A DNA stretch of 42,972 bases from Cnuella takakiae (lineage in GTDB: Bacteria; Bacteroidota; Bacteroidia; Chitinophagales; Chitinophagaceae), in assembly GCF_001953305.1 (NCBI RefSeq), contig NZ_MTFE01000010.1:1978327-2021298 (forward strand), written 5' to 3'. Each line of letters starts with the position of its first letter. The first letter of the stretch is position 1. Of the stretch, positions 7,745 to 42,972 are shown piece after piece. Made by a program: the position numbers and the translations under genes. A model generated the notes under the pieces. The model worked only from the letters and a program-made list of their open reading frames with translations. It had not been told where the DNA came from and made no database searches.

Positions 7745-7764
7745 GCTTTGGAGGATATACTTGT

Positions 7765-7796: not shown

Positions 7797-7797
7797 A

Positions 7798-8027: not shown

Positions 8028-8062
8028 CCCAGTATTACCGCCGCTTGCTCCTAAATTGAACT

Positions 8063-24978: not shown

Positions 24979-25004
24979 CCTGCGTGTTAAGCATAGAACT
25001 TTTG

Positions 25005-25035
25005 AAACCACTGCCTTTCCAGGCGGTGGTTTTTT
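25005..25035 (+). terminator. Intrinsic terminator of rpsL-rpsG
   Basis: 11-bp stem AAACCACTGCC / GGCGGTGGTTT (one G-U pair), 6-nt loop and a T6 run, 26 nt after the rpsG stop. Confidence 0.88.
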
Positions 25036-25036
25036 A

Positions 25037-25264
25037 TTTCACGCAACGAAGCAACGGAGCGGCGGCGCAACGGGAGGTTCACGCAAAGGCGCTAAGGAGC
25101 AAAGCCGCAAAGTGAAGTTGCTCGCTAAGGCACAATGACCCAAAGAGTAGGTAAGCTATCATCAACACAACCTACCAACATGTATTTACGTTGCGCCGCC
25201 GTTCCGTTGCGTCGTTGCGTGAAATAAACTTTGCGTCTTTGCTCCTTTGCCGCTTTGCGGGAAA
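25037..25264. repeat. Two interleaved nonamer-word inverted repeats (CACGCAACG / CACGCAAAG family)
   Basis: This occupies most of the 358-base gap between rpsG and the histone-like gene. L1 25037-25072 pairs with R1 25189-25224 (2 mismatches in 36); L2 about 25078-25114 pairs with R2 25228-25264. The order L1-L2-R1-R2 is interleaved, not nested. The family is the same as at 7798-8005. Apart from the two flanking terminators I see nothing else in the gap. Confidence 0.85.
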
Positions 25265-25282
25265 CTCAATTGCGTGAAAAAT

Positions 25283-25310
25283 AAAAAAGGCTACTCCGGG
25301 GAGCAGCCTT
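25283..25310 (-). terminator. Intrinsic terminator of the histone-like gene
   Basis: 11-bp stem AAGGCTGCTCC / GGAGTAGCCTT on the minus strand, followed by TTTTTTATTTTT. Confidence 0.85.
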
Positions 25311-25336
25311 GATTCTATTATTTGCTTTGCGTGCAA

Positions 25337-26317: not shown

Positions 26318-26983
26318 AATGAATGAATTTTTAAATGGGTTAATAAATAGTACTACCAAAGTACTAAGGATATAACTATTTGCAAAAAATGTGCATTATA
26401 CATGCCTGTTAGGTAAAAGTTTATGCACAATTGTGGACAACCGCAAGCGGAGAATCGGCCAGGTAAGGAGACCCATGAAGGGGCCGGCAAAATGCCTGAA
26501 ACAAATTGCGTGGAACACCTAAAGAGAAAGAGAATTTGAGTGGGGCACAACCGGTCAGATTCCAGGGTTAAAATGCTTCAATGCTACCACCATTACCGCG
26601 GCAAAGTAGGATTTGCTGTTCCAGCAAGGTTTTTTAAACAGTTGGTTCTGTTCTGTCAACAGGCTGTGGATTTACCCATCTCCACCTTTGACCTGTAAGC
26701 AACCATAGCAATGGTGAATGGCGTGTGTAGTATTGCTGCCCGGAGGTTTTTGTCCGGTGTCCGCCGAAGCTCTGTCGGCACTCGTCGTTTAATTAACAAA
26801 CAAGAAATAAATACCGGGGCAAAATGTGCCTCATTTCCTTACCTTTGCGTCCTCAATTTTTTCTTGCCCAAAAACCATCAGGCAGACTTGAAATTGAGCA
26901 AGGCCTAAACCGGTCAGCCTGCTGCATCTGCTGCAGCCCTGCCGGAAGTCCGGGAAACAACGATTTTATACAATCAAATCATC
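26318..26983. other. Long divergent intergenic region between the histone-like gene and fusA
   Basis: 666 bases with no credible gene. It holds a TTATGCACA DnaA-box-like site (26421-26429) next to TTGTGGACAA (one base from the DnaA-box form TTGTGGATAA), and the fusA -7 box at 26840-26847. The fusA leader contains an inverted repeat CTCAATTT (26852-26859) / AAATTGAG (26891-26898). I searched for tmRNA, RNase P and SRP RNA features and saw none. Confidence 0.5.
26840..26847 (+). promoter_or_regulatory. -7 box TACCTTTG of fusA
   Basis: Exact TANNTTTG match giving a leader of about 130 nt before the fusA ATG. The -33 position has no clear TTTG. Confidence 0.55.
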
Positions 26984-30666: not shown

Positions 30667-31007
30667 CAGCAAGATCAAAAACAGCGGTCCGGGTAACTCC
30701 GGGCCTTTAGTTCTTTATAACTTTTTCCAACATCTCTCAACTCCCGCAGCCTTCAGGCCGGGAAGAAAAGAGCGCTGTTTTAGCAAACTACTCAGCCTCC
30801 GGGCAACCGGGATTAAACTGAGTTTTTACATATAAACAAGCCCTTCGAGGTTTGTTTGTTGCCGGTACTTCTGAACCCCACTAGCCGGGGCCGCTTCCTT
30901 CGGGAAGTGCTGATAAAAGAAAAGGTCGGCAATAAACCAGGATTGAAGACCCCCTACCTTCTGGGGTCTGTCTTGCACAACCTTGCGGGGATAAACCTTA
31001 AACACAA
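30667..31007 (+). promoter_or_regulatory. Hairpin-rich rpsJ-rplC spacer, candidate ribosomal-protein leader
   Basis: 341 nt with no gene. Visible stems: 30686-30705 (7 bp), ACTCAG/CTGAGT around 30789-30822 followed by T5, 30834-30857 (9 bp with one G-U), 30891-30909 (stem closing a TTCG tetraloop) and 30947-30969 (perfect AGACCCC/GGGGTCT). None shows the 7/8/9-nt word construction of the other spacers. The ATG of rplC follows 38 nt later. An autoregulatory or processing role is an inference. Confidence 0.5.
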
Positions 31008-31625
31008 ATGAAAGGTATTATCGGCAAGAAAATCGGGATGACCAGCATCTTCGATGCAAGCGGTAAGCAAACTGCCTGCACCATCATCGAGGCTGGTCCT
31101 TGCGTTGTAACTCAGGTTAAAACGCAGGAAACAGACGGCTACAGCGCACTCCAAATCGGTTTCGGCGACAAGAAGCCCAACCAAACGCTGAAAGCTGAAG
31201 CAAATCACTTCGTAAAGGCCAACACTCCGGCCAAGAAATTCGTAAAAGAGTTTCGCAACTTCTATCAGGATCAAAACATCGGCGACGTACTCACCGTGGA
31301 CATTTTCGCTGAAGGCGAAAAAGTTGACGTGGTAGGCACCACCAAGGGTAAAGGTTTCCAGGGCGTAGTTAAGCGTCATGGCTTCTCTGGTGTGGGCGAG
31401 GCTTCGCATGGCCAGCACGACCGTCAGCGTGCACCCGGTTCTATCGGTGGCTCTTCTTACCCCAGCCGTGTATTCAAAGGCATGCGTATGGCAGGCCGTA
31501 TGGGTACCGACCGCGTAAAGGTAAAAGGCCTGAAAGTAGTGAAGATCTTCGCTGAGAAGAACTACATCTTGGTAAGTGGATCCGTTCCGGGCCACAATGG
31601 TTCAATCGTTTTAATCCAGAAGTAA
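31008..31625 (+). CDS. rplC: 50S ribosomal protein L3
   Basis: 205 residues starting [15 protein letters not shown]. The loop that reaches toward the peptidyl-transferase centre is present ([49 protein letters not shown]). Needed early in 50S assembly. The stop is 2 nt from the rplD start, so the two are translationally linked. Confidence 0.98.
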
Positions 31626-31627
31626 TC

Positions 31628-32266
31628 ATGCAACTGAACGTATTAAACATACAAGGACAGGAAACAGGCAGAACTGTTGAACTTCCTGAAGAGATCTTCG
31701 GTATCGAGCCGAACAATCACGTTATCTACCTCGCGGTAAAACAGTACCTCGCCGCTCAGCGCCAGGGTACCCACAAAGTAAAAACCCGCGCCGAAGTACA
31801 GGGTGCCAGCCGCAAGCTGCACCGCCAGAAAGGTACCGGTGGCTCTCGTAAGGGTAATATCCGTAACCCTTTGTACAAAGGCGGTGGTACCATCTTTGGT
31901 CCCAAGCCCCACAAGTACGACATCAAACTGAACCGCAAGGTGAAGGATCTGGCTAAAATCTCTGCCCTGTCTTACAAGGCTAAAGAAAACGCCATCATCG
32001 TTGTTGAAGACCTGAACCTCGACGCTCCCAAGACCAAGACCATCGTAGGTCTGCTGAAGAGCCTGAAGGCCGACAACAAGAAGCTGATGTTCGTTACCCC
32101 CGAGTACAACGACAACGTAACCCTCAGCCTCCGCAACATCCCCACCGTGCTGGGTACCCTGCTGAGCGATGTGAACACTTACGACATCGTAAACTCTGAA
32201 GTACTGGTTCTGACTGAAAGCGCTGCCAAGGTATTTGCCGGTGCTGAAGAAGCTGAAGCAGCGTAA
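31628..32266 (+). CDS. rplD: 50S ribosomal protein L4
   Basis: 212 residues. The exit-tunnel loop is well conserved (EVQGASRKLHRQKGTGGSRK over residues 55-74, then GGGTIFGPKPHKY). In E. coli L4 represses its own S10 operon through the leader RNA; whether the structured rpsJ-rplC spacer plays that part here is unknown. The C-terminal tail is short and acidic (GAEEAEAA). 29 nt separate it from rplW. Confidence 0.98.
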   Translation: MQLNVLNIQGQETGRTVELPEEIFGIEPNNHVIYLAVKQYLAAQRQGTHKVKTRAEVQGASRKLHRQKGTGGSRKGNIRNPLYKGGGTIFGPKPHKYDIKLNRKVKDLAKISALSYKAKENAIIVVEDLNLDAPKTKTIVGLLKSLKADNKKLMFVTPEYNDNVTLSLRNIPTVLGTLLSDVNTYDIVNSEVLVLTESAAKVFAGAEEAEAA

Positions 32267-32295
32267 TAAAGTATTAACCTTTCAAATCTTTTCAG

Positions 32296-32598
32296 ATGAG
32301 AACTTCTGAAGTACTGGTAAAACCCATCCTGACAGAAAAGGCCAACGGTCAGCAGGAAAGCCTGCGCCGCTATGCTTTCAAGGTGGCCCGCAAAGCAAAC
32401 AAGCTGGAGATCAAAAATGCAGTTGAAGCCTTCTACGGTGTAAACGTAGTAGACGTAAACACTTCCGTGGTTCCCGGTAAAAACAAAACCCGCTACACCA
32501 AGAAGGGTTTTGTACAAGGCCAGAAACCCGCTTACAAAAAAGCGCTGGTAACTGTAGCCGAAGGCGAGACCATCGACCTGTACAGCAACAGCCTTTAA
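32296..32598 (+). CDS. rplW: 50S ribosomal protein L23
   Basis: 100 residues with the L23 pattern EVLVKPILTEKANGQQES and KIEIKNAVEAFYGVNVVDVN-like core (here KLEIKNAVEAFYGVNVV). It lies at the tunnel exit and forms the docking site for trigger factor and the signal recognition particle. It is followed by the first heptamer-word palindrome of the operon, which separates it from rplB. Confidence 0.97.
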   Translation: MRTSEVLVKPILTEKANGQQESLRRYAFKVARKANKLEIKNAVEAFYGVNVVDVNTSVVPGKNKTRYTKKGFVQGQKPAYKKALVTVAEGETIDLYSNSL

Positions 32599-32608
32599 GC
32601 AAATAGTC

Positions 32609-32662
32609 GTCCGTCGTCAGTCGGCTGTAGTCTAAAAAGACAACAGACATCAGACGACAGAC
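32609..32662. repeat. Heptamer-word palindrome (AGTCGTC family), rplW-rplB gap
   Basis: Left words AGTCGTC, CGTCGTC, AGTCGGC, TGTAGTC (from 32605) face right words AGACAAC, AGACATC, AGACGAC. The 25-nt arms (32609-32633 and 32638-32662) have 6 mismatches and a 4-nt loop. Confidence 0.85.
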
Positions 32663-32718
32663 CACAACTGTTAACCCGAATGGCTGCAACAGCCGCTAAT
32701 GTTGATAAACAATAAACA

Positions 32719-33558
32719 ATGGCATTAAGAAAGTATAAACCCGTTACAGCCGGTACCCGTTGGAGAATCGGCAACGCTTATGCGGAAGTTACTACCAACG
32801 TTCCCGAGAAGTCGTTGGTGGAATTCAAAAAAGGTACTGGTGGTCGTAACAGCCAGGGCCGTCGTTCTATGCGCTACATCGGTGGCGGTCACAAAAAGAT
32901 GTACCGTATCATCGACTTCAAGCGTGATAAAAAGAACATCCCTGCTACTGTAGCTACAATCGAATATGATCCGAACCGTTCGGCTTTCATCGCCCTGCTG
33001 AACTATGCAGACGGTGAGAAGCGCTACATCATCGCTCCCCAGGGCCTCACCGTAGGTTCCAAGGTGGAAAGCGGCGACGCTGTAGCTCCTGAACTGGGCA
33101 ACGCACTCCAGCTGAAGAACATGCCCCTGGGTACTGTTGTGCACAACATCGAGATGCAGCCTGGCCAGGGTGGTAAGATTGCCCGCAGCGCCGGTGCATC
33201 TGCCCAGCTGAGCAACAAGGAAGAAAAATATGCAATTCTGAAAATGCCTTCGGGTGAACTGCGTAAAGTGCTGATCAATTGCTTCGCTACTGTAGGTGTT
33301 GCTTCTAACAGCGACCACAGCCTGGAAAGCAAGGGTAAAGCAGGACGCAACCGTTGGAAAGGTATTAAGCCTCGCAACCGTGGTGTGGCCATGAACCCTG
33401 TCGATCACCCGATGGGTGGTGGTGAAGGTCGTGCCTCCGGTGGTCAGCCCCGCAGCAGAACAGGTATGTACTCTCGTGGTCTGAAAACCCGTACGAAAGG
33501 AAAAGGCAGCGACAAGCTGATCATCCAACGTAAGAACGGTGGCAAACTGGCTAAATAA
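32719..33558 (+). CDS. rplB: 50S ribosomal protein L2
   Basis: 279 residues. The RNA-binding domain carries [20 protein letters not shown] near residue 40 and the C-terminal part carries [18 protein letters not shown], with the His that sits close to the peptidyl-transferase centre. Primary 23S rRNA binder needed for subunit joining. 31 nt from rpsS without a palindrome. Confidence 0.98.
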
Positions 33559-33589
33559 TCATTTCTAACAAACGAAAATTCAAAATAGA

Positions 33590-33856
33590 ATGGCTCGTTC
33601 GATTAAAAAAGGTCCTTACGTAGCGGCGCACCTTGAAGACAAAGTGGTTGCTATCAACGACGGCAAAAACAAAAGAGGTGTAATCAAAACCTGGAGCCGT
33701 CGTTCTACCATCACGCCTGATTTCGTGGGTCACACCTTCGCAGTTCACAACGGAAACAAGTTCATCCCTGTTTACGTTACCGAATTCATGGTGGGTCACA
33801 AACTGGGTGAATTTGCACCTACCCGCAACTTCAAAGGACACGCAGCTAAAAAGTAA
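33590..33856 (+). CDS. rpsS: 30S ribosomal protein S19
   Basis: 88 residues starting [19 protein letters not shown], with the conserved block [20 protein letters not shown] and the C-terminal [19 protein letters not shown]. Works with S13 in the 30S head near the A-site tRNA. It is followed by an AGCTGTT-type palindrome. Confidence 0.98.
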
Positions 33857-33862
33857 CAATAA

Positions 33863-33930
33863 TTAGCCTTTGGCTGTTAGCCTTTAGCCTTTAGCAGGCC
33901 AACAGCTAACAGCCAACAGCTAAAAACTAA
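33863..33930. repeat. Heptamer-word palindrome (TTAGCCT/AGCTGTT family), rpsS-rplV gap
   Basis: Left words TTAGCCT, TTGGCTG, TTAGCCT, TTAGCCT; right words CCAACAG, CTAACAG, CCAACAG, CTAAAAA. The arms are 33 and 32 nt with a 3-nt loop. It ends 6 nt before the rplV ATG. Confidence 0.9.
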
Positions 33931-33936
33931 ATCATA

Positions 33937-34275
33937 ATGGAAGCAGTAGCTAAACTCCGTAACTATCCCACATCGCCCCGCAAAATGCGTTTGCTGGCTG
34001 ATCTCATCCGCGGTATGCAGGTTGAGAAAGCTCTGGCCGTGCTGGAGCACAACCCCAAGCACCCCGCAGTGCCCATGCGCAAGCTGGTACTGAGTGCCAT
34101 CAGCAACTGGAAGCAGAAGAACGAAGGTGGTGACGAAGGACAGTTGTTCGTAAAAACCATTTTCGTGGATGGCGCCCGCACCCTCAAGCGCATGCGTCCT
34201 GCACCCCAGGGCCGTGGCTACCGCGTACGCAAACGCAGCAATCACGTAACCGTAATTGTTGACGCGAAAGCTTAA
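33937..34275 (+). CDS. rplV: 50S ribosomal protein L22
   Basis: 112 residues. The N-terminal [19 protein letters not shown] and the tunnel-loop region ending [20 protein letters not shown] are conserved; substitutions or deletions here give macrolide resistance elsewhere, and nothing unusual is seen. Only 30 A/T-rich nt separate it from rpsC, one of the few gaps without a palindrome. Confidence 0.98.
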
Positions 34276-34305
34276 TTCAAAACATTCAAAGTATAACCAA
34301 TAAAC

Positions 34306-35112
34306 ATGGGTCAAAAAGCAAATCCTATTGGTAACAGGTTAGGTATCATCCGTGGATGGGAATCCAACTGGTATGGTAACAAAAAGGACTTCTCCACCAA
34401 GCTGATCGAAGACAACAAGATCCGCACCTACCTGAATGCCCGTATCAACAAAGGCGGCATTGCCAAGATTGTGATCGAGCGCACTTTGGGTAAACTGATC
34501 GTTACCATCCACACCTCCAAGCCCGGTATCATCATCGGTAAAGGCGGTGGCGAGGTAGACCGTATCAAAGAAGAGCTGAAGAAGCTCACCGGCAAAGAAG
34601 ACGTACAGATCAACATCCTGGAGATCCGTCGTCCCGAGCTGGATGCTATGATCGTAGGCGATACCATTGCCCGCCAGATTGAAAACCGCATCAACTTTAA
34701 GCGTGCAACTAAGATGGCCATTGCTTCTGCGCTCCGCATGGGTGCCGAAGGTATCAAGGTTCAGCTGAGCGGCCGTCTGGGCGGTGCTGAAATTGCCCGT
34801 TCCGAAAAGTTCATGCAAGGCCGTGTGCCCCTGCACACTTTCCGTATGGACATCGACTACGCCAACGTGTTTGCACAAACCGTATACGGCAAGATCGGTA
34901 TCAAGGTATGGGTATGTAAAGGTGAAGTGCTGCAGAAGCGCGACCTGAACCCCAACCTGGTAGCCGACAAAGGTGGCGCTGGCGACCGTCGTGATGGCGG
35001 CCGTGGTGGCGACCGTGGTGGCTTTGATCGTCGCGATCGTCGTGAAGGCGGTGGTGGTGGTAACCGTGGCGGTGGCAACCGTGGTGGTGGCCGTCCTGGT
35101 GGCAACCGATAA
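34306..35112 (+). CDS. rpsC: 30S ribosomal protein S3 with Gly/Arg-rich C-terminal tail
   Basis: 268 residues. The core is standard: [18 protein letters not shown], the KH motif [20 protein letters not shown] near 78-97, and the C-terminal domain with [13 protein letters not shown] and KVWVCKGEV. After about residue 222 a tail of some 45 residues consists almost only of Gly, Arg, Asp and Asn ([15 protein letters not shown]), like an RGG box. S3 forms part of the mRNA entry channel and helicase site, so the tail may contact mRNA; that is inference. Confidence 0.97.
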
Positions 35113-35113
35113 A

Positions 35114-35151
35114 CAATTAGCTAATTAGCTAATGAGCCAATTAGCTAATTG
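35114..35151. repeat. Octamer-word palindrome (AATTAGCT family), rpsC-rplP gap
   Basis: Words AATTAGCT, AATTAGCT, AATGAGCC, AATTAGCT in 8-nt steps; the 38-nt block is an imperfect palindrome. The rest of the 110-nt gap has ACTACAAACCACAAACT words that partly pair with GTTTGAGTTTGG. Confidence 0.88.
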
Positions 35152-35222
35152 ATAACTCAATGTGTAACGCGGTTTGAGTTTGGAAAAATTACCAACTACA
35201 AACCACAAACTATAAACTAGAT

Positions 35223-35645
35223 ATGTTACAGCCGAAAAGAACAAAGCACCGCAAAGTGCAGAAAGGCCGCATGAAAGGCGACGCCAAGCGCGGTGCTACC
35301 ATCTCTTTTGGTTCCTACGCTCTGAAGGCGCTGGAAAACCATTGGATCACCGATCGCCAGATCGAGGCTGCCCGTCAGGCACTCACCCGTCACATGAAGC
35401 GTGAAGGTAATGTGTGGATCCGCATTTTCCCCGACAAGCCCATCACCCGCAAGCCGCTCGAGGTACGTATGGGTAAGGGTAAAGGTAACCTGGAGTTCTG
35501 GGCTGCCACTGTTAAACCCGGTCGCATCATTTTTGAAATTGATGGTGTAAGCGAAGAGGTTGCTCAAGGCGCTCTTAAGCTGGCTGCCGGCAAACTGCCC
35601 ATCGCCTGCAAGTTTGTTAAGCGTCGTGACCTGATCACCGCCTAA
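35223..35645 (+). CDS. rplP: 50S ribosomal protein L16
   Basis: 140 residues starting [19 protein letters not shown]. Conserved blocks GVRP-like core replaced by the usual [20 protein letters not shown] and [12 protein letters not shown] are present. Organises the A-site of the peptidyl-transferase region. It lies between two octamer-word palindromes. Confidence 0.98.
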
Positions 35646-35650
35646 TAACA

Positions 35651-35739
35651 AATGTGCTAATGAGCCAATTAGCTAATGTGCTAAACGGCTTACCTCACAA
35701 GGACATTAGCACATTGGCACATTATCACCTTATCAAATT
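35651..35739. repeat. Octamer-word palindrome (AATGTGCT family), rplP-rpmC gap
   Basis: Left words AATGTGCT, AATGAGCC, AATTAGCT, AATGTGCT (35651-35684); right words ACATTAGC, ACATTGGC, ACATTATC, ACCTTATC (from 35703). The loop is about 20 nt. The ATG of rpmC follows within 10 nt. Confidence 0.88.
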
Positions 35740-35746
35740 AAAGATC

Positions 35747-35956
35747 ATGTCTAAGACTATCGACTTCAAAAAAAGCATTCAGGGCCTGAGCATCGACGAC
35801 CTGAAGGCCCGCATCGCAGAAGACGAGCAGCGCCTGAAGAAGCTTGAGTTCGGTCATGCCATTTCTCCCCTGGAGAATCCCATGAGCATCCGTTCTCTGC
35901 GTCGCGAACTGGCTCGCCTGAAAACTGAACTGAAGAAACAACAACTGAGTGCATAA
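35747..35956 (+). CDS. rpmC: 50S ribosomal protein L29
   Basis: 69 residues from the ATG at 35747 (MSKTIDFKKSIQGLSIDDL). An in-frame ATG at 35654 would run through the palindrome and is rejected. The two long helices end with NPMSIRSLRRELARLKTELK, the L29 signature. Small protein at the tunnel exit near L23. Confidence 0.96.
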   Translation: MSKTIDFKKSIQGLSIDDLKARIAEDEQRLKKLEFGHAISPLENPMSIRSLRRELARLKTELKKQQLSA

Positions 35957-36021
35957 ACAGCTGTTAGCTGTTAGCTGTTAGCCCTTAGCTAACAGCCAAA
36001 GGCTAAAAGCTAAAAGCTAAT
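35957..36021. repeat. Heptamer-word palindrome (AGCTGTT family), rpmC-rpsQ gap
   Basis: Left words AGCTGTT x3; right words CTAACAG, CCAAAGG, CTAAAAG, CTAAAAG. It begins right after the rpmC stop and ends 4 nt before the rpsQ ATG. Confidence 0.9.
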
Positions 36022-36025
36022 TACA

Positions 36026-36301
36026 ATGGCTGAAACAACAACTCCTGAAATCAGGAATCTCCGGAAAACCCGTATCGGCGTGGTTACCAGCAACAAGATG
36101 ACCAAAACCATCACCGTTGCCGTTGAACGTAAGGTAAAGCACCCCATCTACGGTAAGTTCGTAAAGAAAACCACCAAGTTCCACGCCCACGACGAGCAGC
36201 AGACTGCTTCTATCGGCGATGTGGTGAAGATCATGGAAACCCGTCCCCTGAGCAAGACTAAGCGATGGAGACTGGTGGAGATCGTAGAGAAAGTGAAATA
36301 A
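36026..36301 (+). CDS. rpsQ: 30S ribosomal protein S17
   Basis: 91 residues with the OB-fold sequence [39 protein letters not shown] and the C-terminal [17 protein letters not shown]. An early-binding protein of the 30S body. Flanked on both sides by AGCTGTT-type palindromes. Confidence 0.98.
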
Positions 36302-36303
36302 GA

Positions 36304-36415
36304 AAAAGCTGTTAGCTGTTGGCCTTTGGCTTTTAGCTACAGCCTATCTGGTAAAAAGAATACTAACTGCTTTTAGTTGCGCTGGCTAACCGCTAACAGC
36401 TAAAAGCCAAAAGCT
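36304..36415. repeat. Heptamer-word palindrome (AGCTGTT/GGCTTTT family), rpsQ-rplN gap
   Basis: Left words AGCTGTT, AGCTGTT, GGCCTTT, GGCTTTT (36304-36338); right words GCTAACC, GCTAACA, GCTAAAA, GCCAAAA (36385-36415). The loop is 46 nt. The ATG of rplN follows 7 nt later. Confidence 0.88.
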
Positions 36416-36422
36416 CAAAAAA

Positions 36423-36791
36423 ATGATCCAGCAAGAATCCCGTTTGACAGTAGCGGACAACAGTGGTGCTAAAGAAGTACTCTGCATCCGTGTACTGGGC
36501 AACAGCGGTCAGCGTTATGCAAGGGTTGGCGACAAGATCGTAGTAACCGTTAAAGACGCTATCCCAGCCGGCGGTATCAAAAAAGGTACAGTAGCCAAAG
36601 CGGTTATTGTACGCACCACCAACAAGCTGCGTCGTAAGGATGGTTCTTACATCCGTTTCGACGATAATGCAGTAGTTATCTTAAATGCTTCCGACGAACC
36701 ACGCGGTACCCGTATCTTTGGGCCCGTTGCTCGTGAGCTGCGTGATAAGGGCTACATGAAGATCATCTCCCTGGCTCCTGAAGTGCTTTAA
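36423..36791 (+). CDS. rplN: 50S ribosomal protein L14
   Basis: 122 residues starting [19 protein letters not shown], with AIVVRT-like core KAVIVRTTN, and the C-terminal [19 protein letters not shown]. Forms an intersubunit bridge and the binding site of the silencing factor RsfS. Followed by a 137-nt spacer with non-word hairpins. Confidence 0.98.
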
Positions 36792-36860
36792 GGAGTAGGA
36801 GGGAACCCGCAACGGTCCCTTATTGATCGGCACACAGAACATAGTCTAATCAATAAACCG

Positions 36861-36911
36861 GTTCCTGGCAGTATCAGGAACATAAAAACAACACTCCCGC
36901 AGCAATGCGGG
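36861..36911 (+). promoter_or_regulatory. Repeated hairpin element 1 (loop GCAGTAT) plus a GC hairpin, before rplX
   Basis: Stem GTTCCTG / CAGGAAC around GCAGTAT (36861-36881), followed by an A-rich stretch and a second stem CCCGC / GCGGG (36896-36911). The core of 15 nt (36864-36878) recurs identically at 39554-39568 before rplR. Confidence 0.55.
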
Positions 36912-36928
36912 GATGAGGGTAAAACAAA

Positions 36929-37261
36929 ATGAAAACAAGATTCAAACCCAAGTACAACATCCGCAAGGGCGACCAGGTGGTTGTTATCGCAGGCGATGAC
37001 AAGGACCTGAAAAAACCCCGCACCGTGCTGGAAGTACTGGTTGATGATGCAAAGGTGGTGGTAGAAGGCGTAGCCATTGTTACCAAACACACCAAGCCTT
37101 CGGCTCAGAACACCAAAGGTGGTATCGTTAAGAAAGAAGCTGCTATCGCAATTTCCAACGTTATGTTGTGGGATGGCAAACAAGCCACCAAAGTGAAGCG
37201 CGAAGTGGTAGAAGGTAAAAAAGTTCGTGTATCTAAAAAATCCGGGGAGGCAATCAAGTAA
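36929..37261 (+). CDS. rplX: 50S ribosomal protein L24
   Basis: 110 residues with a KOW motif, [19 protein letters not shown], near the N-terminus, then [19 protein letters not shown]. One of the two initiators of 50S assembly. Its TAA stop shares a base with the rplE ATG (TAATG), so translation of the two is coupled; this is the only such overlap in the ribosomal run. Confidence 0.97.
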
Positions 37262-37827
37262 TGGCAACAACAACTACAACTCCGAGATTAAAAGATAAGT
37301 ACAAGGCTGAAGTGATCCCTGCCCTGCAGAAGCGCTTCAACTACAAGTCTGTAATGCAGGTTCCCCGCCTGGAGAAGATCTCCATCAACCGCGGTGTGAA
37401 TGGTGCCGTTGCCGACAAGAAGCTGGTTGATATTGCTATCGACGAACTGACCACCATTACCGGTCAGAAAGCCGTAGCTACCATGTCTAAAAAAGACATC
37501 TCCAACTTCAAGCTGCGTAAGAACATGCCCATCGGTGCGCGTGTTACCCTGCGTGGCGACAAGATGTACGAATTCCTCGACCGTCTGATCGCTGTGGCCC
37601 TGCCCCGCGTACGTGACTTCAAAGGCATCAACGAGAAGTCTTTCGACGGCCGTGGCAACTATACCATGGGTGTTACCGAGCAGATCATCTTCCCTGAAAT
37701 CGACATCGATAAGGTGAACAAGATCACTGGTCTGGACATCACTTTTGTAACTACTGCCCAAAACGACGAAGAAGCTTACGAGCTCCTGAAGGAACTGGGT
37801 ATGCCGTTCAAAAACATCAAGAAATAA
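37261..37827 (+). CDS. rplE: 50S ribosomal protein L5
   Basis: 188 residues with [14 protein letters not shown] near 38, the RNA-binding [18 protein letters not shown] near 98, and the C-terminal [33 protein letters not shown]. Binds 5S rRNA and carries it into the large subunit. Its stop codon overlaps the first word of an octamer palindrome. Confidence 0.98.
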
Positions 37828-37948
37828 TGTGCCAATTAGCTAATTAGCAAATGTGCTCATTAGCTAATCCGGTTCTTTTGTAAATACAAACAACCATTTG
37901 CCAGTGAGCTATACATAGCACATTGGCTAATTATCAAATTAGCAAATT
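37826..37948. repeat. Octamer-word palindrome (AATTAGCT/AATGTGCT family), rplE-rpsN gap
   Basis: Left words AATGTGCC, AATTAGCT, AATTAGCA, AATGTGCT, then CATTAGCT (37826-37868); right words AGCACATT, GGCTAATT, ATCAAATT, AGCAAATT (to 37948). It begins on the rplE stop and ends 8 nt before the rpsN ATG. Confidence 0.88.
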
Positions 37949-37956
37949 AACTCACT

Positions 37957-38226
37957 ATGGCTAAAGAATCAGTAAAGGCTCGTCAGCGTAAGCGTGAGCG
38001 TATGGTTGCCCAGTATGCTGAGAAGCGTGCAGCCCTGAAAGCCGCCGGCGACTATGCCGCCTTGGACGAGCTTCCCAAAAACGCTTCGCCCGTGCGCCTG
38101 CACAACCGTTGCCAGATGACCGGCCGTCCCCGCGGTTACAGCCGTTACTTCGGTATCAGCCGTGTAGCCCTGCGCGACATGGCCCTGAACGGCATGATCC
38201 CCGGTCTGAAGAAGGCTAGCTGGTAA
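37957..38226 (+). CDS. rpsN: 30S ribosomal protein S14 (zinc-independent form)
   Basis: 89 residues, the longer S14 form without the CXXC zinc knuckles of the short form. The conserved segments [20 protein letters not shown] and [20 protein letters not shown] end in KKASW. Late-assembling protein of the 30S head. Followed by a GAGTAAT palindrome. Confidence 0.98.
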
Positions 38227-38230
38227 GCAG

Positions 38231-38288
38231 ATGAGTAATGAGTAATGAATAATGAGTCACCACTCATTACTCATCACTCATTATTCAT
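38231..38288. repeat. Heptamer-word palindrome (GAGTAAT family), rpsN-rpsH gap
   Basis: Left words GAGTAAT, GAGTAAT, GAATAAT, GAGT; right words ACTCATT, ACTCATC, ACTCATT, ATTCAT. The 27-nt arms have 3 mismatches, at least two of which allow G-U pairs, and a 4-nt loop. Confidence 0.92.
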
Positions 38289-38326
38289 GAACACAACAAC
38301 ATCAATTATTCATATCAAATCCAATT

Positions 38327-38353
38327 ATCCCGCTCCGTGCGGGATGTAGGAGG
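38327..38353 (+). promoter_or_regulatory. Hairpin followed by a full Shine-Dalgarno AGGAGG before rpsH
   Basis: Stem ATCCCGC / GCGGGAT (38327-38345) with a TCCGT loop, then AGGAGG at 38348-38353, 9 nt from the rpsH ATG. S8 is the autoregulator of the spc operon in E. coli, which makes a control site here attractive, though no S8-type target was recognised. Confidence 0.5.
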
Positions 38354-38362
38354 GCTCCAAAC

Positions 38363-38761
38363 ATGGTAACAGATCCTATAGCAGATTTCCTGACCCGTAT
38401 CCGTAACGCTCAGATGGCAGGACACCGCATCGTGGAAATCCCCGCTTCTAACCTGAAGAAGCGCATGACCGAGATCCTGTACAACCAGGGTTATATCCTG
38501 AAGTACAAGTTCGAGGACGACAACAAACAAGGTCTGATCAAAATCGCATTGAAGTACGACGCAGCTACCAAAACGCCCGCTATCCAGTCGCTGGAGCGTG
38601 TTAGCCGTCCCGGTCTGCGTCACTACGCCAAGCCTGCCGACTTCCGTCGTGTAAAGAATGGCTTGGGTATCGCTATCCTCTCTACTTCTAAGGGTGTGCT
38701 TACCGACAAGGAAGCCAAAACCCAGAATGTAGGTGGCGAAGTACTGTGCTATATCTACTAA
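38363..38761 (+). CDS. rpsH: 30S ribosomal protein S8
   Basis: 132 residues starting MVTDPIADFLTRIRNAQMAG, with KPGLR-like motif RPGLRHYAKP and the C-terminal GIAILSTSKGVLTDKEA and GGEVLCYIY. Binds helix 21 of 16S rRNA and organises the central domain. It has the clearest Shine-Dalgarno of the ribosomal genes here. The last base of its stop is the first base of the next palindrome. Confidence 0.98.
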   Translation: MVTDPIADFLTRIRNAQMAGHRIVEIPASNLKKRMTEILYNQGYILKYKFEDDNKQGLIKIALKYDAATKTPAIQSLERVSRPGLRHYAKPADFRRVKNGLGIAILSTSKGVLTDKEAKTQNVGGEVLCYIY

Positions 38762-38820
38762 GCTATTAGCTATTAGCTGTTGGCTTTTAGCTAACAGCCA
38801 ACAGCTAATAGCCAACAGCC
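38761..38820. repeat. Heptamer-word palindrome (AGCTATT/AGCTGTT family), rpsH-rplF gap
   Basis: An uninterrupted run of 7-nt words: AGCTATT, AGCTATT, AGCTGTT, GGCTTTT, AGCTAAC, AGCCAAC, AGCTAAT, AGCCAAC. The centre 38770-38811 is a 42-nt palindrome with a single mismatched pair and no loop. This is the cleanest example of the class. Confidence 0.93.
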
Positions 38821-38905
38821 TCTTCTTACCAATACATTAAGCTGTTCCTATACAGGCTGACCGGTTGGTAAGCATAATCAAACAATAAACAACAAACTTC
38901 TTACT

Positions 38906-39460
38906 ATGTCTCGTATAGGTAAAGCGCCCATCGCTGTTCCTGCAGGTGTAACCATCTCGGTTGCAGCTGACAACGTGGTAACCGTGAAAGGCCCCAAGGG
39001 TGAGCTGAAGCAGCCCATCGACCGCGACATCACTGTTCAGGTTGAAAACAATGAAATTAACGTAACCCGTCCCACCGACCAGATTCGCCACCGCGCACTG
39101 CATGGTCTGAGCCGCGCCCTGCTGGCCAACCTGGTGAAAGGTGTAACTGAAGGTTATACCCGTAAGCTGGAGCTGGTGGGTGTAGGTTTCAAGGCTACCA
39201 ACACTGGTAACGTTCTGGACCTCGCCCTGGGTTACTCGCACAACATCATTTTCGAAATTCCTTCGGAACTGAAAGTAGCCACCCTGCAGGAAAAAGGTAA
39301 GAACCCCGAAATCACCCTGACCGGTATCGACCGTCAGCTGATCGGTGCCGTTGCCGCTAAAATCCGCAGCCTGCGCAAACCCGAGCCGTACAAAGGTAAA
39401 GGTGTTCGCTACCAGGGTGAAGTGGTACGTAAGAAAGCAGGTAAGTCTGCTGGTAAATAA
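38906..39460 (+). CDS. rplF: 50S ribosomal protein L6
   Basis: 184 residues in two similar domains, starting MSRIGKAPIAVPAGVTI, with TVKGPKGEL near 28, the linker GVTEGYTRKLELVGVGFKA, and the C-terminal signature PEPYKGKGVRYQGEVVRKK. Near the factor-binding site and the sarcin-ricin loop. Followed by two different repeat elements before rplR. Confidence 0.98.
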   Translation: MSRIGKAPIAVPAGVTISVAADNVVTVKGPKGELKQPIDRDITVQVENNEINVTRPTDQIRHRALHGLSRALLANLVKGVTEGYTRKLELVGVGFKATNTGNVLDLALGYSHNIIFEIPSELKVATLQEKGKNPEITLTGIDRQLIGAVAAKIRSLRKPEPYKGKGVRYQGEVVRKKAGKSAGK

Positions 39461-39541
39461 GGTTAGGTGTTTGGTGTTTAGGGTTTGGAGTTGTTTATCG
39501 CTCCTCCTGAACACCAAACCCCAAACTCCTAACTCCAAACA
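39461..39541. repeat. Heptamer-word palindrome (GTGTTTG family), rplF-rplR gap
   Basis: Left words GTGTTTG, GTGTTTA, GGGTTTG, GAGTTGT; right words GAACACC, AAACCCC, AAACTCC, TAACTCC. It starts at the rplF stop. Confidence 0.88.
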
Positions 39542-39551
39542 TAAAACTCAT

Positions 39552-39570
39552 TCCCTGGCAGTATCAGGGA
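39552..39570 (+). promoter_or_regulatory. Repeated hairpin element 2 (loop GCAGTAT) before rplR
   Basis: Stem TCCCTG / CAGGGA around the loop GCAGTAT, 15 nt before the rplR ATG. Compared with the rplX copy, one stem pair changes from T-A to C-G, a covariation that supports an RNA structure. Confidence 0.55.
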
Positions 39571-39585
39571 TGTAAATACAACAAC

Positions 39586-39945
39586 ATGAAAACAAGCGCT
39601 AAACTTTCCCGGAGGCAGAACATCCGCTACCGGATCCGTGCTAAAATTTCGGGTACCGCGCAGAAACCCCGCCTGTCGGTGTTTCGTAGCAATGCCGATA
39701 TCTACGTTCAGGTTATCGACGACGTAAACGGCTTTACCCTGGCAGCTGCTTCTTCCCGCGATAAGGACATTGCAGCCCAAACCGGCACCAAATCAGAAAA
39801 GAGCTTCCTCGTAGGCCAGGCTGTTGCCCGCAAAGCAAAAGAACTGGGTATCGAGAAAGTGGTTTTCGATCGTGGTGGCAACCTGTACCATGGCCGCGTT
39901 AAGGCAGTAGCCGATGGCGCTCGTGAAGGAGGTCTGCAATTCTAA
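39586..39945 (+). CDS. rplR: 50S ribosomal protein L18
   Basis: 119 residues with [38 protein letters not shown] and the C-terminal [25 protein letters not shown] (read as [14 protein letters not shown] plus ADGAREGG). Binds 5S rRNA together with L5. Preceded closely by the GCAGTAT hairpin and followed by an AGCTGTT palindrome. Confidence 0.98.
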
Positions 39946-39947
39946 TC

Positions 39948-40012
39948 AGCCGTTAGCTATTAGCCATTAGCTGTTAGCCTCGCTAATAGCTAACAGCCAA
40001 CAGCTAAAAGCT
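39948..40012. repeat. Heptamer-word palindrome (AGCTGTT family), rplR-rpsE gap
   Basis: Left words AGCCGTT, AGCTATT, AGCCATT, AGCTGTT; right words GCTAATA, GCTAACA, GCCAACA, GCTAAAA. The 31-nt arms have a 3-nt loop. Confidence 0.9.
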
Positions 40013-40044
40013 TCAATTCTAACGTAATTACTAAGTAATACACA

Positions 40045-40563
40045 ATGGCAAAAGCTAATTTAAATAGGGTAAAAGCTGGCGACCTGGAACTGAAAGACAA
40101 GGTTGTTGCGATCAACCGCGTAGTGAAGACTACCAAAGGTGGCCGTGCTTTCTCTTTCTCCGCACTGGTAGTTGTTGGTAACGAGAACGGTGTGGTAGGT
40201 CATGGCCTGGGCAAAGCAAAAGAAGTTCAGGAAGCCATCACCAAGGGCATCGAAGATGCCAAGAAGAACCTGATCAAGGTTCCTGTAATGCACGGTACTA
40301 TTCCCCACGATCAACTGGCAAAAGTTGGTGCTGCCAAAGTACTGATCAAGCCTGCTGCACACGGTACGGGTGTAATCGCCGGTGGTTCGATGCGTGCTGT
40401 GCTGGAAAGCGCCGGTGTTACCGACGTTCTGGCCAAGTCGCTGGGCTCTGCCAACCCCCACAACGTGGTTAAAGCTACTTTCGAAGCCCTCGCCCTGCTG
40501 CGTGAGCCCGTAAGCATCGCTAAAACACGTCGCGTTGCGCTGAAAAAAGTATTCAACGGCTAA
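40045..40563 (+). CDS. rpsE: 30S ribosomal protein S5
   Basis: 172 residues. The double-stranded-RNA-binding part has [20 protein letters not shown] and [14 protein letters not shown], followed by [19 protein letters not shown] and [16 protein letters not shown]. Lies at the mRNA entry channel and affects accuracy. Normal length; nothing suggests spectinomycin-resistance changes. Confidence 0.98.
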
Positions 40564-40567
40564 TAAA

Positions 40568-40641
40568 AGTTTTTAGTTTTTAGTTTTTGGTTCCTGGTCC
40601 TGACCATTGAACCAAAAACTAAAAACCAGAAACTAAAAACT
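40568..40641. repeat. Heptamer-word palindrome (AGTTTTT family), rpsE-rpmD gap
   Basis: Left words AGTTTTT, AGTTTTT, AGTTTTT, GGTTC; right words CCAAAAA, CTAAAAA, CCAGAAA, CTAAAAA. Loop of 15 nt. It ends 8 nt before the rpmD ATG. Confidence 0.92.
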
Positions 40642-40649
40642 CATTAGAT

Positions 40650-40832
40650 ATGAAGAAGATCAAAATCACGCTGGTAAAGAGCCCCATCGACCGCCCTCAG
40701 CGTCAGAAAGATACCCTGGTAGCCCTGGGTCTGAAAAAGATGAACGCTACCAAAGAGGTTGAAGCTACTCCCCAGATCCTGGGTATGGTAAACAAGGTAC
40801 AGCACCTGGTTGCCGTAGAAGAGCTGGCATAA
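40650..40832 (+). CDS. rpmD: 50S ribosomal protein L30
   Basis: 60 residues: [39 protein letters not shown], and [15 protein letters not shown] cover the entire L30 fold. Non-essential in many species. It sits between two word palindromes of different period (7 before, 8 after). Confidence 0.97.
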
Positions 40833-40835
40833 GGC

Positions 40836-40937
40836 AATTAGCTAATTAGCCAATGTGCTAATTGGCTAATGTTATTACACTAGCTTTGCAATTCTTTTTT
40901 CTTTTAGCACATTAGCTCATTGGCTAATTAGCTAATT
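40836..40937. repeat. Octamer-word palindrome (AATTAGCT family), rpmD-rplO gap
   Basis: The outer 20 bp of the arms (40836-40855 and 40918-40937) are perfect inverted copies. Further words AATGTGCT, AATTGGCT and TTTAGCAC, ATTAGCTC continue the arms in 8-nt steps. Confidence 0.92.
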
Positions 40938-40978
40938 AAAGCGAGGGGAGATACCCCGTTAAGTAAAAATCAACAAGC

Positions 40979-41428
40979 ATGAAACTGCACAATCTCCAAC
41001 CTGCCAAAGGTTCCGTACACAAAGAGAAACGTTTAGGTCGTGGTGAAGCTTCCGGTAAAGGTGGCACCTCCACAAAAGGTAACAAAGGCCAGCAAAGCCG
41101 TACCGGTTACCAGCGCAAGATGGCCCACGAAGGTGGCCAGATGCCCATCCAGCGTCGTGTTCCCAAGCGTGGCTTCAAGAACATCAACCGCATCGAGTAC
41201 AAAGTGTTCAACCTGGGTCAACTCCAGCAGCTGTCTGAAAAGTACAACCTGGCTGAGATCACCCTCGAGAACCTGTACATCAACGGCCTGATCGCTCAAA
41301 CCGACCGCGTGAAAGTACTGGGCAATGGTGAGCTGACTGCCAAGCTGAGCTTCCGCGTTAACGCCATCTCCGAGAAAGCCAAATCGGCTATCGAAACTGC
41401 AGGCGGTTCCGTAGAGATCATCAAGTAA
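40979..41428 (+). CDS. rplO: 50S ribosomal protein L15
   Basis: 149 residues. The N-terminal extension rich in Gly and Lys (KRLGRGEASGKGGTSTKGNK) is typical of L15, as are GGQMPIQRRVPKRGFKNI and the C-terminal VNAISEKAKSAIETAGGSV. Late 50S assembly protein. A terminator-like hairpin follows, before secY. Confidence 0.98.
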   Translation: MKLHNLQPAKGSVHKEKRLGRGEASGKGGTSTKGNKGQQSRTGYQRKMAHEGGQMPIQRRVPKRGFKNINRIEYKVFNLGQLQQLSEKYNLAEITLENLYINGLIAQTDRVKVLGNGELTAKLSFRVNAISEKAKSAIETAGGSVEIIK

Positions 41429-41440
41429 TTACTTTAAATT

Positions 41441-41473
41441 TGAGGTCGCTGTTGTACACAGCGGCCTCATTTT
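41441..41473 (+). terminator. Terminator-like hairpin between rplO and secY
   Basis: 12-bp stem TGAGGTCGCTGT / ACAGCGGCCTCA with one G-U pair, a 5-nt loop and a short TTTT run. It could end the ribosomal transcript or attenuate secY. Confidence 0.75.
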
Positions 41474-41547
41474 ATTGATTACAACATTTGGTTCGATGGT
41501 AAATAGGTTTGCTGTAAAGGATATATTGTCTTATTATCGCAAACCTT

Positions 41548-41575
41548 TTTGCTTATAGAGAATCGTAAACGTTTG
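41548..41575 (+). promoter_or_regulatory. Weak candidate secY promoter
   Basis: TTTG (41548-41551), a 16-nt spacer and AACGTTTG (41568-41575), one base from TANNTTTG, 8 nt before the GTG start. The distance to the start is very short, so the call is weak. Confidence 0.3.
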
Positions 41576-41583
41576 ACTATTCT

Positions 41584-42921
41584 GTGAAGAAGTTATTTAA
41601 GACCCTGAAGAATATCTGGAGCATCGAAGAGCTGCGCGACAAGATTGTGTTCACGCTGGTGCTGATATTCATTTACCGCGTGGGTACCCACATCGTACTG
41701 CCCGGTATTGATCCTACCAGACTGAATCTGAACAATGCTAACAATGGTATCCTCGGACTGATCGACACCTTTGCCGGTGGCGCCTTCTCACAGGCTTCGA
41801 TCTTTGCGCTTGGCATCATGCCTTACATTTCCGCTTCCATCTTCATGCAACTGATGACGGTACTGGTACCCCAGTTCCAGAAGATGCAGAAAGAAGGAGA
41901 GAGTGGTCGTAAAAAAATCAACCAGTGGACGCGCTTCCTCACCGTGGGTGTGGCTGCCGTTCAGGGTTCGGCTTACGTTGCTTACCTGCGCCAGATGACC
42001 GCCCAATCGGGTGGTATCATGCCTGGCTTTGAATCGTATTTCTGGTTGTCTACCGTGCTGCTGCTTACTGCAGGTACCCTGTTTGTAATGTGGCTGGGTG
42101 AGAAGATCACTGATAAAGGCCTGGGTAACGGTACTTCACTCATCATCATGGTGGGTATCCTGGCCCGACTGCCCCAGAGCTTTATGCAGGAACTGACCAA
42201 CAAATCAGTTCGTACCGGCCAGATCCTCATCTTCATCATCGAGATCGCCATCCTGATTGCCATCATTATGGGATGTATCCTGCTGGTGCAAGGTGTGCGC
42301 AAGATACCTGTTAACTATGCCAAGCAGATTGTTGGTAACCGCCAGTTTGGTGGTGCCCGCCAGTTCCTGCCCATTAAGGTTAACAGCGCCGGTGTAATGC
42401 CCATCATCTTTGCACAGGCGGTTTTGTTCCTGCCTACCTTGTTCAACCTGAGCAAGACTGCAACAGGTCAGGGTATTGCAGCCATGTTTACCGACCACTC
42501 CAACGTGTGGTACATGGTAATCTACTCGGTGGTAGTAATTGGTTTTACCTTCCTGTACACCGCCCTTATTTTCAACCCCAAGCAGATTGCCGACAACCTG
42601 AAGCAGAACAACGGCTTCATCCCCGGTGTGAAGCCTGGCCAGCCTACGGTTGATTATATTGGTGCGGTAATGGACAAGATCACCCTGCCTGGCGCCATCC
42701 TGTTGGCACTGGTGGGTATCCTGCCTGGTATCGCTCAACTGCTCGGTGTAACGCAAGGTTTTTCTACCTTCTTCGGTGGCACTTCGTTGCTCATCATGGT
42801 AGGTGTGATCCTCGATACCCTCCAGCAGATCGAAACACAGTTGCTGATGCGCCAGTACGACGGCCTGATGAAGAGCGGTCGCATCCAGGGTCGCCAGACT
42901 GTAACTCAAGCTTCTTATTAA
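41584..42921 (+). CDS. secY: Preprotein translocase subunit SecY
   Basis: 445 residues with ten membrane helices; the central channel subunit of the Sec translocon. It opens with a GTG codon, since KKLFKTLKNIWSIEELRDKI matches the normal N-terminus and no ATG is near. The plug/helix 2 region ALGIMPYISASIFMQLMTVL, GNGTSLIIMVGILARLP, the cytoplasmic loop IPVNYAKQIVG, and LPIKVNSAGVMPIIFAQAVL are conserved. The C-terminus (MRQYDGLMKSGRIQGRQ) is normal. It is separated from rplO by 155 nt and a terminator-like hairpin. Confidence 0.97.
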   Translation: MKKLFKTLKNIWSIEELRDKIVFTLVLIFIYRVGTHIVLPGIDPTRLNLNNANNGILGLIDTFAGGAFSQASIFALGIMPYISASIFMQLMTVLVPQFQKMQKEGESGRKKINQWTRFLTVGVAAVQGSAYVAYLRQMTAQSGGIMPGFESYFWLSTVLLLTAGTLFVMWLGEKITDKGLGNGTSLIIMVGILARLPQSFMQELTNKSVRTGQILIFIIEIAILIAIIMGCILLVQGVRKIPVNYAKQIVGNRQFGGARQFLPIKVNSAGVMPIIFAQAVLFLPTLFNLSKTATGQGIAAMFTDHSNVWYMVIYSVVVIGFTFLYTALIFNPKQIADNLKQNNGFIPGVKPGQPTVDYIGAVMDKITLPGAILLALVGILPGIAQLLGVTQGFSTFFGGTSLLIMVGVILDTLQQIETQLLMRQYDGLMKSGRIQGRQTVTQASY

Positions 42922-42942
42922 CATCAGATAACCTAGCTTTGA

Positions 42943-42972
42943 AAACCTGGCGGGCCAATGCCCGCCGGGTTT
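42943..42972 (+). terminator. Hairpin after secY at the window edge
   Basis: Stem AAACC-GGCGGGC / GCCCGCC-GGGTTT with a CAAT loop, 21 nt after the secY stop. The window ends inside the possible T tract, so terminator function cannot be confirmed. Confidence 0.6.

Follow-up and report, generated by a model that had tools for sequence, protein, structure and literature searches.

Palindromes built from short repeated words in the ribosomal operon of Cnuella takakiae and across its genome

The window analyzed here, a stretch of 42,972 nucleotides from Cnuella takakiae (contig NZ_MTFE01000010.1, positions 1,978,327 to 2,021,298), carries the S10/spc ribosomal operon of a 5.7-Mb genome that is 99.68% complete; gene names are read from translations, and the best named matches to its L6 protein are from Chitinophagaceae (77%). 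An initial sequence-only reading had reported that 13 gaps between rplW and rplO each hold an imperfect palindrome whose arms are runs of degenerate words of fixed length. We tested every gap from rplC to secY, using 300 dinucleotide shuffles for the period score and 100 for the palindrome score. The report holds for all 13 gaps: each has a period-7 or period-8 segment with a score reached by 0/300 shuffles and an inverted repeat with a score reached by 0/100, and the word lengths given, 7 nt in nine gaps and 8 nt in four, are correct throughout. The elements are listed below with their period and palindrome scores.

32606..32665, no strand assigned, rplW-rplB palindrome of 7-nt words (AGTCGTC / GACGAC type); period-7 score 16.6, palindrome 12.6
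33863..33923, no strand assigned, rpsS-rplV palindrome of 7-nt words (TTAGCTG type); period 18.0, palindrome 17.0
35114..35151, no strand assigned, rpsC-rplP palindrome of 8-nt words (AATTAGCT); period 19.2, palindrome 14.8
35651..35731, no strand assigned, rplP-rpmC palindrome of 8-nt words (AATGTGCT/AATTAGCT); period 20.4, palindrome 18.8
35959..36020, no strand assigned, rpmC-rpsQ palindrome of 7-nt words (AGCTGTT); period 30.8, palindrome 18.2
36314..36415, no strand assigned, rpsQ-rplN palindrome of 7-nt words; period 17.0, palindrome 16.1
37830..37944, no strand assigned, rplE-rpsN palindrome of 8-nt words; period 11.2, palindrome 19.2
38231..38288, no strand assigned, rpsN-rpsH palindrome of 7-nt words (GAGTAAT); period 26.8, palindrome 21.3
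38762..38819, no strand assigned, rpsH-rplF palindrome of 7-nt words (AGCTATT/AGCTGTT), adjoining the stop codon; period 25.6, palindrome 21.4
39462..39540, no strand assigned, rplF-rplR palindrome of 7-nt words (GTGTTTG); period 15.6, palindrome 17.8
39948..40012, no strand assigned, rplR-rpsE palindrome of 7-nt words (TTAGCTG); period 18.4, palindrome 16.5
40568..40641, no strand assigned, rpsE-rpmD palindrome of 7-nt words (AGTTTTT); period 20.8, palindrome 22.5
40836..40937, no strand assigned, rpmD-rplO palindrome of 8-nt words (AATTAGCT/AATGTGCT); period 18.2, palindrome 27.4

The minimum free energy (MFE) z-scores of these 13 gaps run from -2.1 to -7.5. Some palindrome extents had to be redrawn: in rpsC-rplP the palindrome covers only 38 nt, with a distinct array of 7-nt words after it, while the arms in rpsQ-rplN enclose a 54-nt loop, which by eye resembles the loops of several relatives, and arm coordinates give rplE-rpsN a long loop of 59 nt. 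In the shuffle tests from rplC to secY, no element was found in rplD-rplW, rplB-rpsS, rplV-rpsC (gaps of 29-31 nt), rplN-rplX or rplO-secY; rplC-rplD and rplX-rplE, where hardly any gap separates the genes, also have none. The earlier statement that gaps in this operon measure 0-30 nt in most bacteria agrees with the genomes compared: in E. coli K-12 the rplC-secY gaps reach at most 33 nt, except for 164 nt at rpsQ-rplN, and the median S10 gap is at most 30 nt in 41/52 Bacteroidota loci (L079-L130).

To place these elements in their genome, labeled G000 (other G and L labels denote relatives' genomes and loci), we read C1:700001-1500000 and C1:1800001-2200000, 1.2 of the 5.7 Mb. All genome-wide gap sets, including the 200-kb samples of relatives, a cyanobacterial plasmid and the genome-wide side of the core-operon comparison, come from a home-made open reading frame (ORF) finder, which misplaced some starts, e.g., those of rplP and rplE. 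Gaps of 25-600 nt were used genome-wide, 25-900 nt for the plasmid, 30-250 nt for the core-operon comparison and 40-260 nt for folding; all were free of N, with minimum lengths of 30 nt in the S10 survey and 40 nt in the dialect, turnover, G000/G015 and other-genome mismatch sets. A gap counted as periodic at a period score of at least 13 in the G000 genome-wide counts, word lists, ordered-word test and arm tests, in the plasmid and in the relatives' 200-kb counts; at least 11 in the mismatch tests and, for relatives, the arm permutations; at least 10 for core-operon enrichment, folding and the S10 survey; and at least 9 in the G000/G015, dialect, polarity and turnover analyses.

An excess of periods 7 and 8 outside the operon, whose absence would have refuted the sequence-only reading, is present. 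Autocorrelation over 436 tandem gaps gives z = 67 at lag 7, 19 at lag 14 and 8.6 at lag 8. The same analysis gives z = 20.6 at lag 18 compared with only 3.1 at lag 9. A period 7-9 segment was found in 134/641 gaps; by period there are 105 gaps at 7, 21 at 8, 12 at 9, 1 at 6 and 3 at 11, and none of the 641 at periods 4, 5, 10 or 12. Shuffled gaps yielded 0.5 at period 8 and none at any other period. Periods 7-9 occur in 105/436 tandem gaps (1.23 per kb), 19/101 convergent gaps (0.88) and 10/104 divergent gaps (0.35). Sorting the element list by eye gives some ten word families that recur, including AGCTGTT, GTTTTTG, GACGACG, GATGAGT, GGTATTG and GATTATT, the 8-mers AATTAGCT/AATGTGCT and CGCAAAGG, and the 9-mer AAAGACGGA. 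Arrays of one 7-9-nt word face arrays of its reverse complement across the gap; single arrays that lack a partner arm are also on the list.

The elements are unevenly placed. In tandem gaps of G000, 48/75 periodic palindromes begin within 10 nt after the stop codon, compared with 22.5 expected under uniform placement, and the AGCTGTT and AATTAGCT families lie within housekeeping operons (by names from translations, rplM-rpsI-rpsB-tsf, nuo, atp and an iscS-iscU-like pair). We compared core-operon gaps, defined as those of S10, rplM-tsf and atp, with other tandem gaps: elements occupy 18/22 versus 86/284 in G000, and 11/20 versus 1/61 and 14/21 versus 2/48 in the same-genus relatives G015 and G003. 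Genome-wide load is highest in G000, at the 134/641 gaps given above, against 5/115 in G015, 4/100 in G003, 2/111 in G024 and 1/92 in G030, each of these sampled over 200 kb.

The S10 survey took in 100 genomes and 941 gaps (one of 101 operons, with fewer than six gaps, was set aside). Period 7 was found in 132 gaps, period 8 in 68 and period 9 in 6; the remaining periods between 4 and 12 had 1-5 gaps each. Of 18 same-genus genomes, 13 could be used, four having no match and one lying on a partial contig; all 13 have elements (100/204 gaps), as against at least one element in 35/87 other genomes (97/737 gaps). Elements are commoner in L051-L078 (63/394 gaps) than in L079-L130 (20/242). In orthologous gaps, the element sits behind the stop codon and ahead of a leader conserved in many species, and its words differ from species to species, atpB-atpE being a clear case.

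That the words form species dialects was assessed by 6-mer similarity among 152 elements of 13 genomes, with genome labels permuted within gaps. Similarity is 0.0439 for different gaps of the same genome, 0.0181 for different gaps of different genomes and 0.0507 for the same gap in different genomes; the permuted mean is 0.0204 (standard deviation, 0.0016), and 0/2000 permutations reached 0.0439. In surrogates with scrambled word positions but unchanged composition, period and degeneracy, the same/different-genome ratio is 1.08 (maximum 1.2 of 15); the observed ratio is 2.4. Since same-genome and same-gap similarities are both raised, the words are inherited in place as well as common across the genome. 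Consensus words are identical in 1.8% of pairs; for background 7-mers drawn at random the figure is 0.12%, and for words with shuffled letters it is 0.22%. Only this excess was used, because single-linkage clustering was uninformative: it placed 95/104 words in one cluster, and random words cluster too.

The earlier proposal that both copying between gaps and construction from short words are needed is supported by these shared words and by two further observations. In the ordered-word test (79 elements), 189 pairs reach a similarity score of 16 compared with 81 for word-shuffled elements, and 2 compared with 0 reach 40. Moreover, the rpmC-rpsQ element has a 62-nt copy, 97% identical and including the loop, at C1:784137-784198, in the gap that separates two genes identified from their translations as rplM and rpsI. 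In many gaps a related species tends to have words particular to it, a pattern suggesting that within one genome these stretches of DNA are copied from, and rewritten by, each other. The loci with word palindromes include ribosomal and ATP-synthase operons and, in G000, NADH-dehydrogenase operons.

The arrays also have a polarity. We scored arrays lying in the outer 40% of a gap on either side and set ties aside (left side, 7/96 tandem, 2/24 convergent and 2/11 divergent; right side, 0/70, 6/26 and 1/14). Left-side arrays have more G than C in all three gap types (71:18 tandem, 18:4 convergent, 8:1 divergent), and right-side arrays have more C than G (63:7, 17:3 and 12:1). Core gaps of 12 relatives behave likewise (46:14 on the left, 53:8 on the right); in the 200-kb samples of G015 and G003, which hold few arrays, polarity is unclear. 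Non-periodic gaps have a weaker skew, with a mean of at most 0.20 at either end against array means of 0.32 to 0.49. A need for A/C-rich leaders before start codons could set the polarity where gaps are tandem or divergent; its presence in convergent gaps suggests that the palindromes there arrived as copies from elsewhere.

Are the elements shaped by selection on RNA? Hairpins selected for mRNA 3'-end formation, or for processing and insulation, and kept in highly expressed operons, with the words as mere material, would account for the placement near stop codons and the tandem-gap bias, for the core-operon enrichment and for the strong folding (mean z -5.2 in core gaps and -6.2 in G000). The details of the stems fit poorly. 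In periodic stems, A-C mismatches outnumber G-U pairs (120 versus 87 in G000 and, in the S10 gaps of other genomes, 131 versus 82). Non-periodic stems tend the other way, with more G-U than A-C (96 versus 73 and 68 versus 35). For isolated mismatches, periodic stems have 64 G-U and 95 A-C and non-periodic stems 41 and 29 (Fisher p=0.014); by set, the G-U and A-C counts are 39 versus 44 and 25 versus 51 for periodic stems and 34 versus 21 and 7 versus 8 for non-periodic stems, the last pair coming from genus core gaps. Furthermore, the sense strand gives the less stable fold of the two strands, strongly in periodic G000 gaps (+3.7 kcal/mol; 22/77 stabler in sense; p=1.5e-5) and weakly in core gaps (+1.3 kcal/mol; 46/104; p=0.05), with no significant difference between the strands in non-periodic gaps. 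Because G-U is not preferred, the sense strand folds worse and word variants are barely mirrored between the arms (see below), base-by-base selection for an mRNA hairpin is not supported, and neither, in that form, is the mRNA stability system of the sequence-only reading. Nor does selection alone explain the fixed word length or the genome dialects, and some close relatives lack an element where the partner has one. Selected RNA hairpins are therefore, in our judgment, an unlikely explanation of the class. A scan of 32500-41600 for G+C-rich stems with a loop of 3-8 nt and a T run directly behind found 16 terminator-like sites (shuffle mean, 12.5), none of them on the + strand within the 13 elements; + strand sites were confined to the stretch after rplO (41441-41469). 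A search of 31000-42972 against Rfam 15 gave 31 matches up to E=1, mostly to microRNA families and none at gathering score.

We give about an even chance to an origin at the DNA level, in which slippage and template switching generate the elements as dispersed non-coding repeats and copying carries them between loci. A short hairpin with about one word per arm would form in non-coding, probably highly transcribed DNA; replication slippage would double whole words, and template switching between the quasi-palindromic arms would carry a new word across. Arrays or whole palindromes may then exchange sequence with like-worded arrays elsewhere, by gene-conversion-like or template-switch copying, and such exchange would homogenize the words into a species dialect. 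Insertions would be purged from coding sequence and conserved leaders, which would leave the free stretch behind the stop codon. A role in mRNA was perhaps acquired later and would not be what keeps the bases paired. In favor of this origin stand the restriction to periods 7-9, the dialect, the ectopic copy and the ordered-word similarity, the word turnover at about 88% coding identity, the L061/L064 pair described below, arm pairing that bears no RNA signature, and a polarity that persists in convergent gaps. The core-operon enrichment fits yeast assays in which quasi-palindrome template-switch mutations arose only under high transcription (PMC3820800). More tentatively, and with the balance leaning somewhat against it, the dialect may be self-homogenizing: scattered palindromes would rewrite one another, copies of a word class changing together, through an agent that is neither Y1 nor RVT_1.

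Several points weigh against the DNA-level origin. It is drawn from sequence comparison, it takes high transcription of the core operons as given, and it needs some agent that copies between loci. Template switching between arms cannot be frequent, since the arms match only slightly better than word-shuffled ones: the arm match is 0.802 versus 0.796 (better in 61/105; p=0.016), and in-register pairing is 0.787 versus 0.759 with permuted words, but at the best of three shifts the permuted value is 0.799 and the observed one 0.795. Strong mirror-image copying of arms had been indicated by a first signal of 0.82 in register against 0.58 one word off; it was dropped when the signal nearly vanished with periodic arms and word-order permutation, the larger difference having come from arms unfiltered for periodicity. 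MFE is lower than with permuted words (-31.5 versus -28.9 in G000 and -24.3 versus -23.8 in core gaps), a slight improvement that counts toward RNA hairpins and is expected from template switching or structural selection alike. The preference for tandem over divergent gaps and the near-stop placement fit a selected 3'-end function as well.

Comparison of close relatives is likewise double-edged. In L058 and L059, with 97.5% coding identity, three aligned periodic gaps differ by substitutions and one single-base indel only, and such small changes mean that word-changing events are not fast. At about 88% coding identity, G006 and G014 have the same words in 8 of 22 gaps, different words in 7, an element in one genome only in 3 and in neither in 4, and for G010 and G012 the corresponding counts over 19 gaps are 1, 4, 4 and 10; the same and different classes were assigned automatically, and the 31-nt rplR-rpsE gap of G006 was counted as periodic. 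The sequence-only reading, which the same words at normal substitution rates in close relatives would have refuted, thus stands at about 88% identity, where many gaps have new words or a gained or lost element, although the three gaps compared at 97.5% show ordinary small changes alone. At rpsS-rplV, L061 has a 7-bp hairpin, and L064 (86% identity) carries that hairpin plus further 7-nt words in both arms; either state may be older.

Plain heptamer slippage, acting independently at each locus and yielding palindromes through partly self-complementary words, appears improbable. It would fit the single arrays that have no partner arm and the report that heptamers are the commonest 5-11-nt repeat class in most genomes surveyed, a survey whose authors raise the idea of polymerase contacts (Mrazek et al. 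2007, as presented in PMC4679880). Independent origin gives no shared words, however, and so fails against the excess of identical words and the dialect tests; inverted arms with fixed polarity in three gap types and the core-operon enrichment also go unexplained.

REP and REPIN elements are linked with RAYT transposases, and the sequence-only reading had suggested a search for such an enzyme. Y1_Tnp matches occur in 29/38 genomes, with two in G000. G005 (100% complete, 90 contigs) has no match, yet carries elements in 7/17 S10 gaps, while G030 has five matches, S10 gaps all shorter than 30 nt, too short for elements, and 1/92 periodic gaps in 200 kb. The suggested link is not supported, in that Y1_Tnp does not track the elements. 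RVT_1 was matched in 14/38 genomes, and neither in G000 nor in G009 (100% complete, 70 contigs), where 14/18 S10 gaps have elements, and a link to a reverse transcriptase is not supported either. As to the fixed terminal inverted repeats of a MITE, filled and empty gaps compared by eye showed no constant ends, in a comparison that did not search systematically for target duplications. REP-like elements, whether mobilized in trans by a Y1 transposase (RAYT/TnpA-REP) or spread by reverse transcription, are improbable: dispersed copies exist, G000 does have Y1_Tnp, and on both sides of a gap the G-rich strand reads inward from the flanking gene, by analogy with fused telomeric ends, against which stand the distribution of both families, no constant ends by eye and the several word families per genome. 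Two related candidates were rejected. Telomerase-like healing as a source of the polarity was dropped because G000 has no RVT_1 match, and loss of RNase HII as a cause of quasi-palindrome mutation was discarded, the enzyme being present in 21/23 genomes, including G000, and the two with no match being incomplete.

The sequence-only reading knew of no described element with such a grammar, a statement that is right only in part. The short tandemly repeated repetitive (STRR) sequences of filamentous cyanobacteria are 7-bp tandem repeats between genes, capable of forming hairpins, e.g., in hupS-hupL, with proposed roles in transcript stability or translational coupling (PMC2670836). These heptamer hairpins are the nearest known kind, by resemblance. 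As with STRR, the units here are 7-bp tandem repeats in intergenic DNA and form hairpins between genes, as in all 13 window gaps, and 8- and 9-nt units occur besides. Unlike STRR, they have a Bacteroidota host, several word families per genome and a place in many core-operon gaps, and species dialects, polarity and arms drawn from a word pool are measured here. On the cyanobacterial side our comparison covers one 249-kb stretch of a Trichormus plasmid, in which only 5/124 gaps are periodic (three at 7, one each at 8 and 11), a single one of these five being a clear 7-nt palindrome.

Other systems are more distant. REP elements, extragenic palindromes dispersed in many copies (PMC12306157), share the dispersal between genes and the multiple copies; here, in contrast, the arms are word arrays and the word families have no common consensus. 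TAACTGA heptamer repeats form intergenic arrays in Beggiatoaceae, Cyanobacteria and five Bacteroidetes (PMC4679880). According to that report they consist of one fixed word repeated directly, apart from one indirect case, and in the genome that was its main subject they lie mostly ahead of start codons, whereas here there are many words and inverted arms, often starting directly after stop codons. G-rich heptamers, some in inverted pairs, have also been described (PMC4692102). Quasi-palindrome template switching makes imperfect inverted-repeat arms more alike, which in the work cited above concerns single mutations, unlike a genome-wide class of elements with a fixed word length. The grammar is thus a variant of a kind already known, and the dialect, the polarity and the core-operon concentration seem new; for these three we found no prior description in the open-licence literature, within the portions of it that were accessible.

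If the dialect is indeed self-homogenizing, this would amount to a new concerted, transposase-free spread of repeats in bacteria, with palindrome polarity as its fingerprint. A real dialect would mean that bacteria can rewrite short repeats in concert genome-wide with no known transposase, in gaps of the most conserved operons, and a single testable process would then connect the fixed heptamer length with quasi-palindrome mutagenesis and with core operons. The lean of non-periodic stems toward G-U pairs, which periodic stems do not share, cautions against taking each intercistronic hairpin as a selected RNA structure.

Some further features of the window may be recorded. The rpsC-rplP element (35115-35150) is nearly letter-identical in the same gap of G015, while several other G000/G015 gaps differ in their words; slow evolution at that site or horizontal exchange could be responsible. 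Arrays of 8-nt CTTTGCGCC-type words, members of the CGCAAAGG family found elsewhere in G000, lie in two further gaps, 7745-8062 and 24979-25336. The ORF at 25337-26359 (minus strand) encodes a long lysine/alanine repeat, presumably like that of a histone-H1-like tail protein. A motif, CCTGGCAGTATCAGG, occurs in two gaps, at 36864-36878 before rplX and 39554-39568 before rplR, and had no Rfam match above threshold at either site. Of the 13 same-genus genomes, 6 have it letter for letter in the rplF-rplR gap, and its core, GGCAGNATC, is kept in 13/13; variants among relatives change both sides of the stem, and the motif is possibly a ribosomal-protein leader element. Finally, non-periodic leader hairpins before rpsH (38331-38354), rplF (38833-38865) and rplO (40939-40972) appear by eye alike across many relatives of the genus, in which the word palindromes on their upstream side vary.

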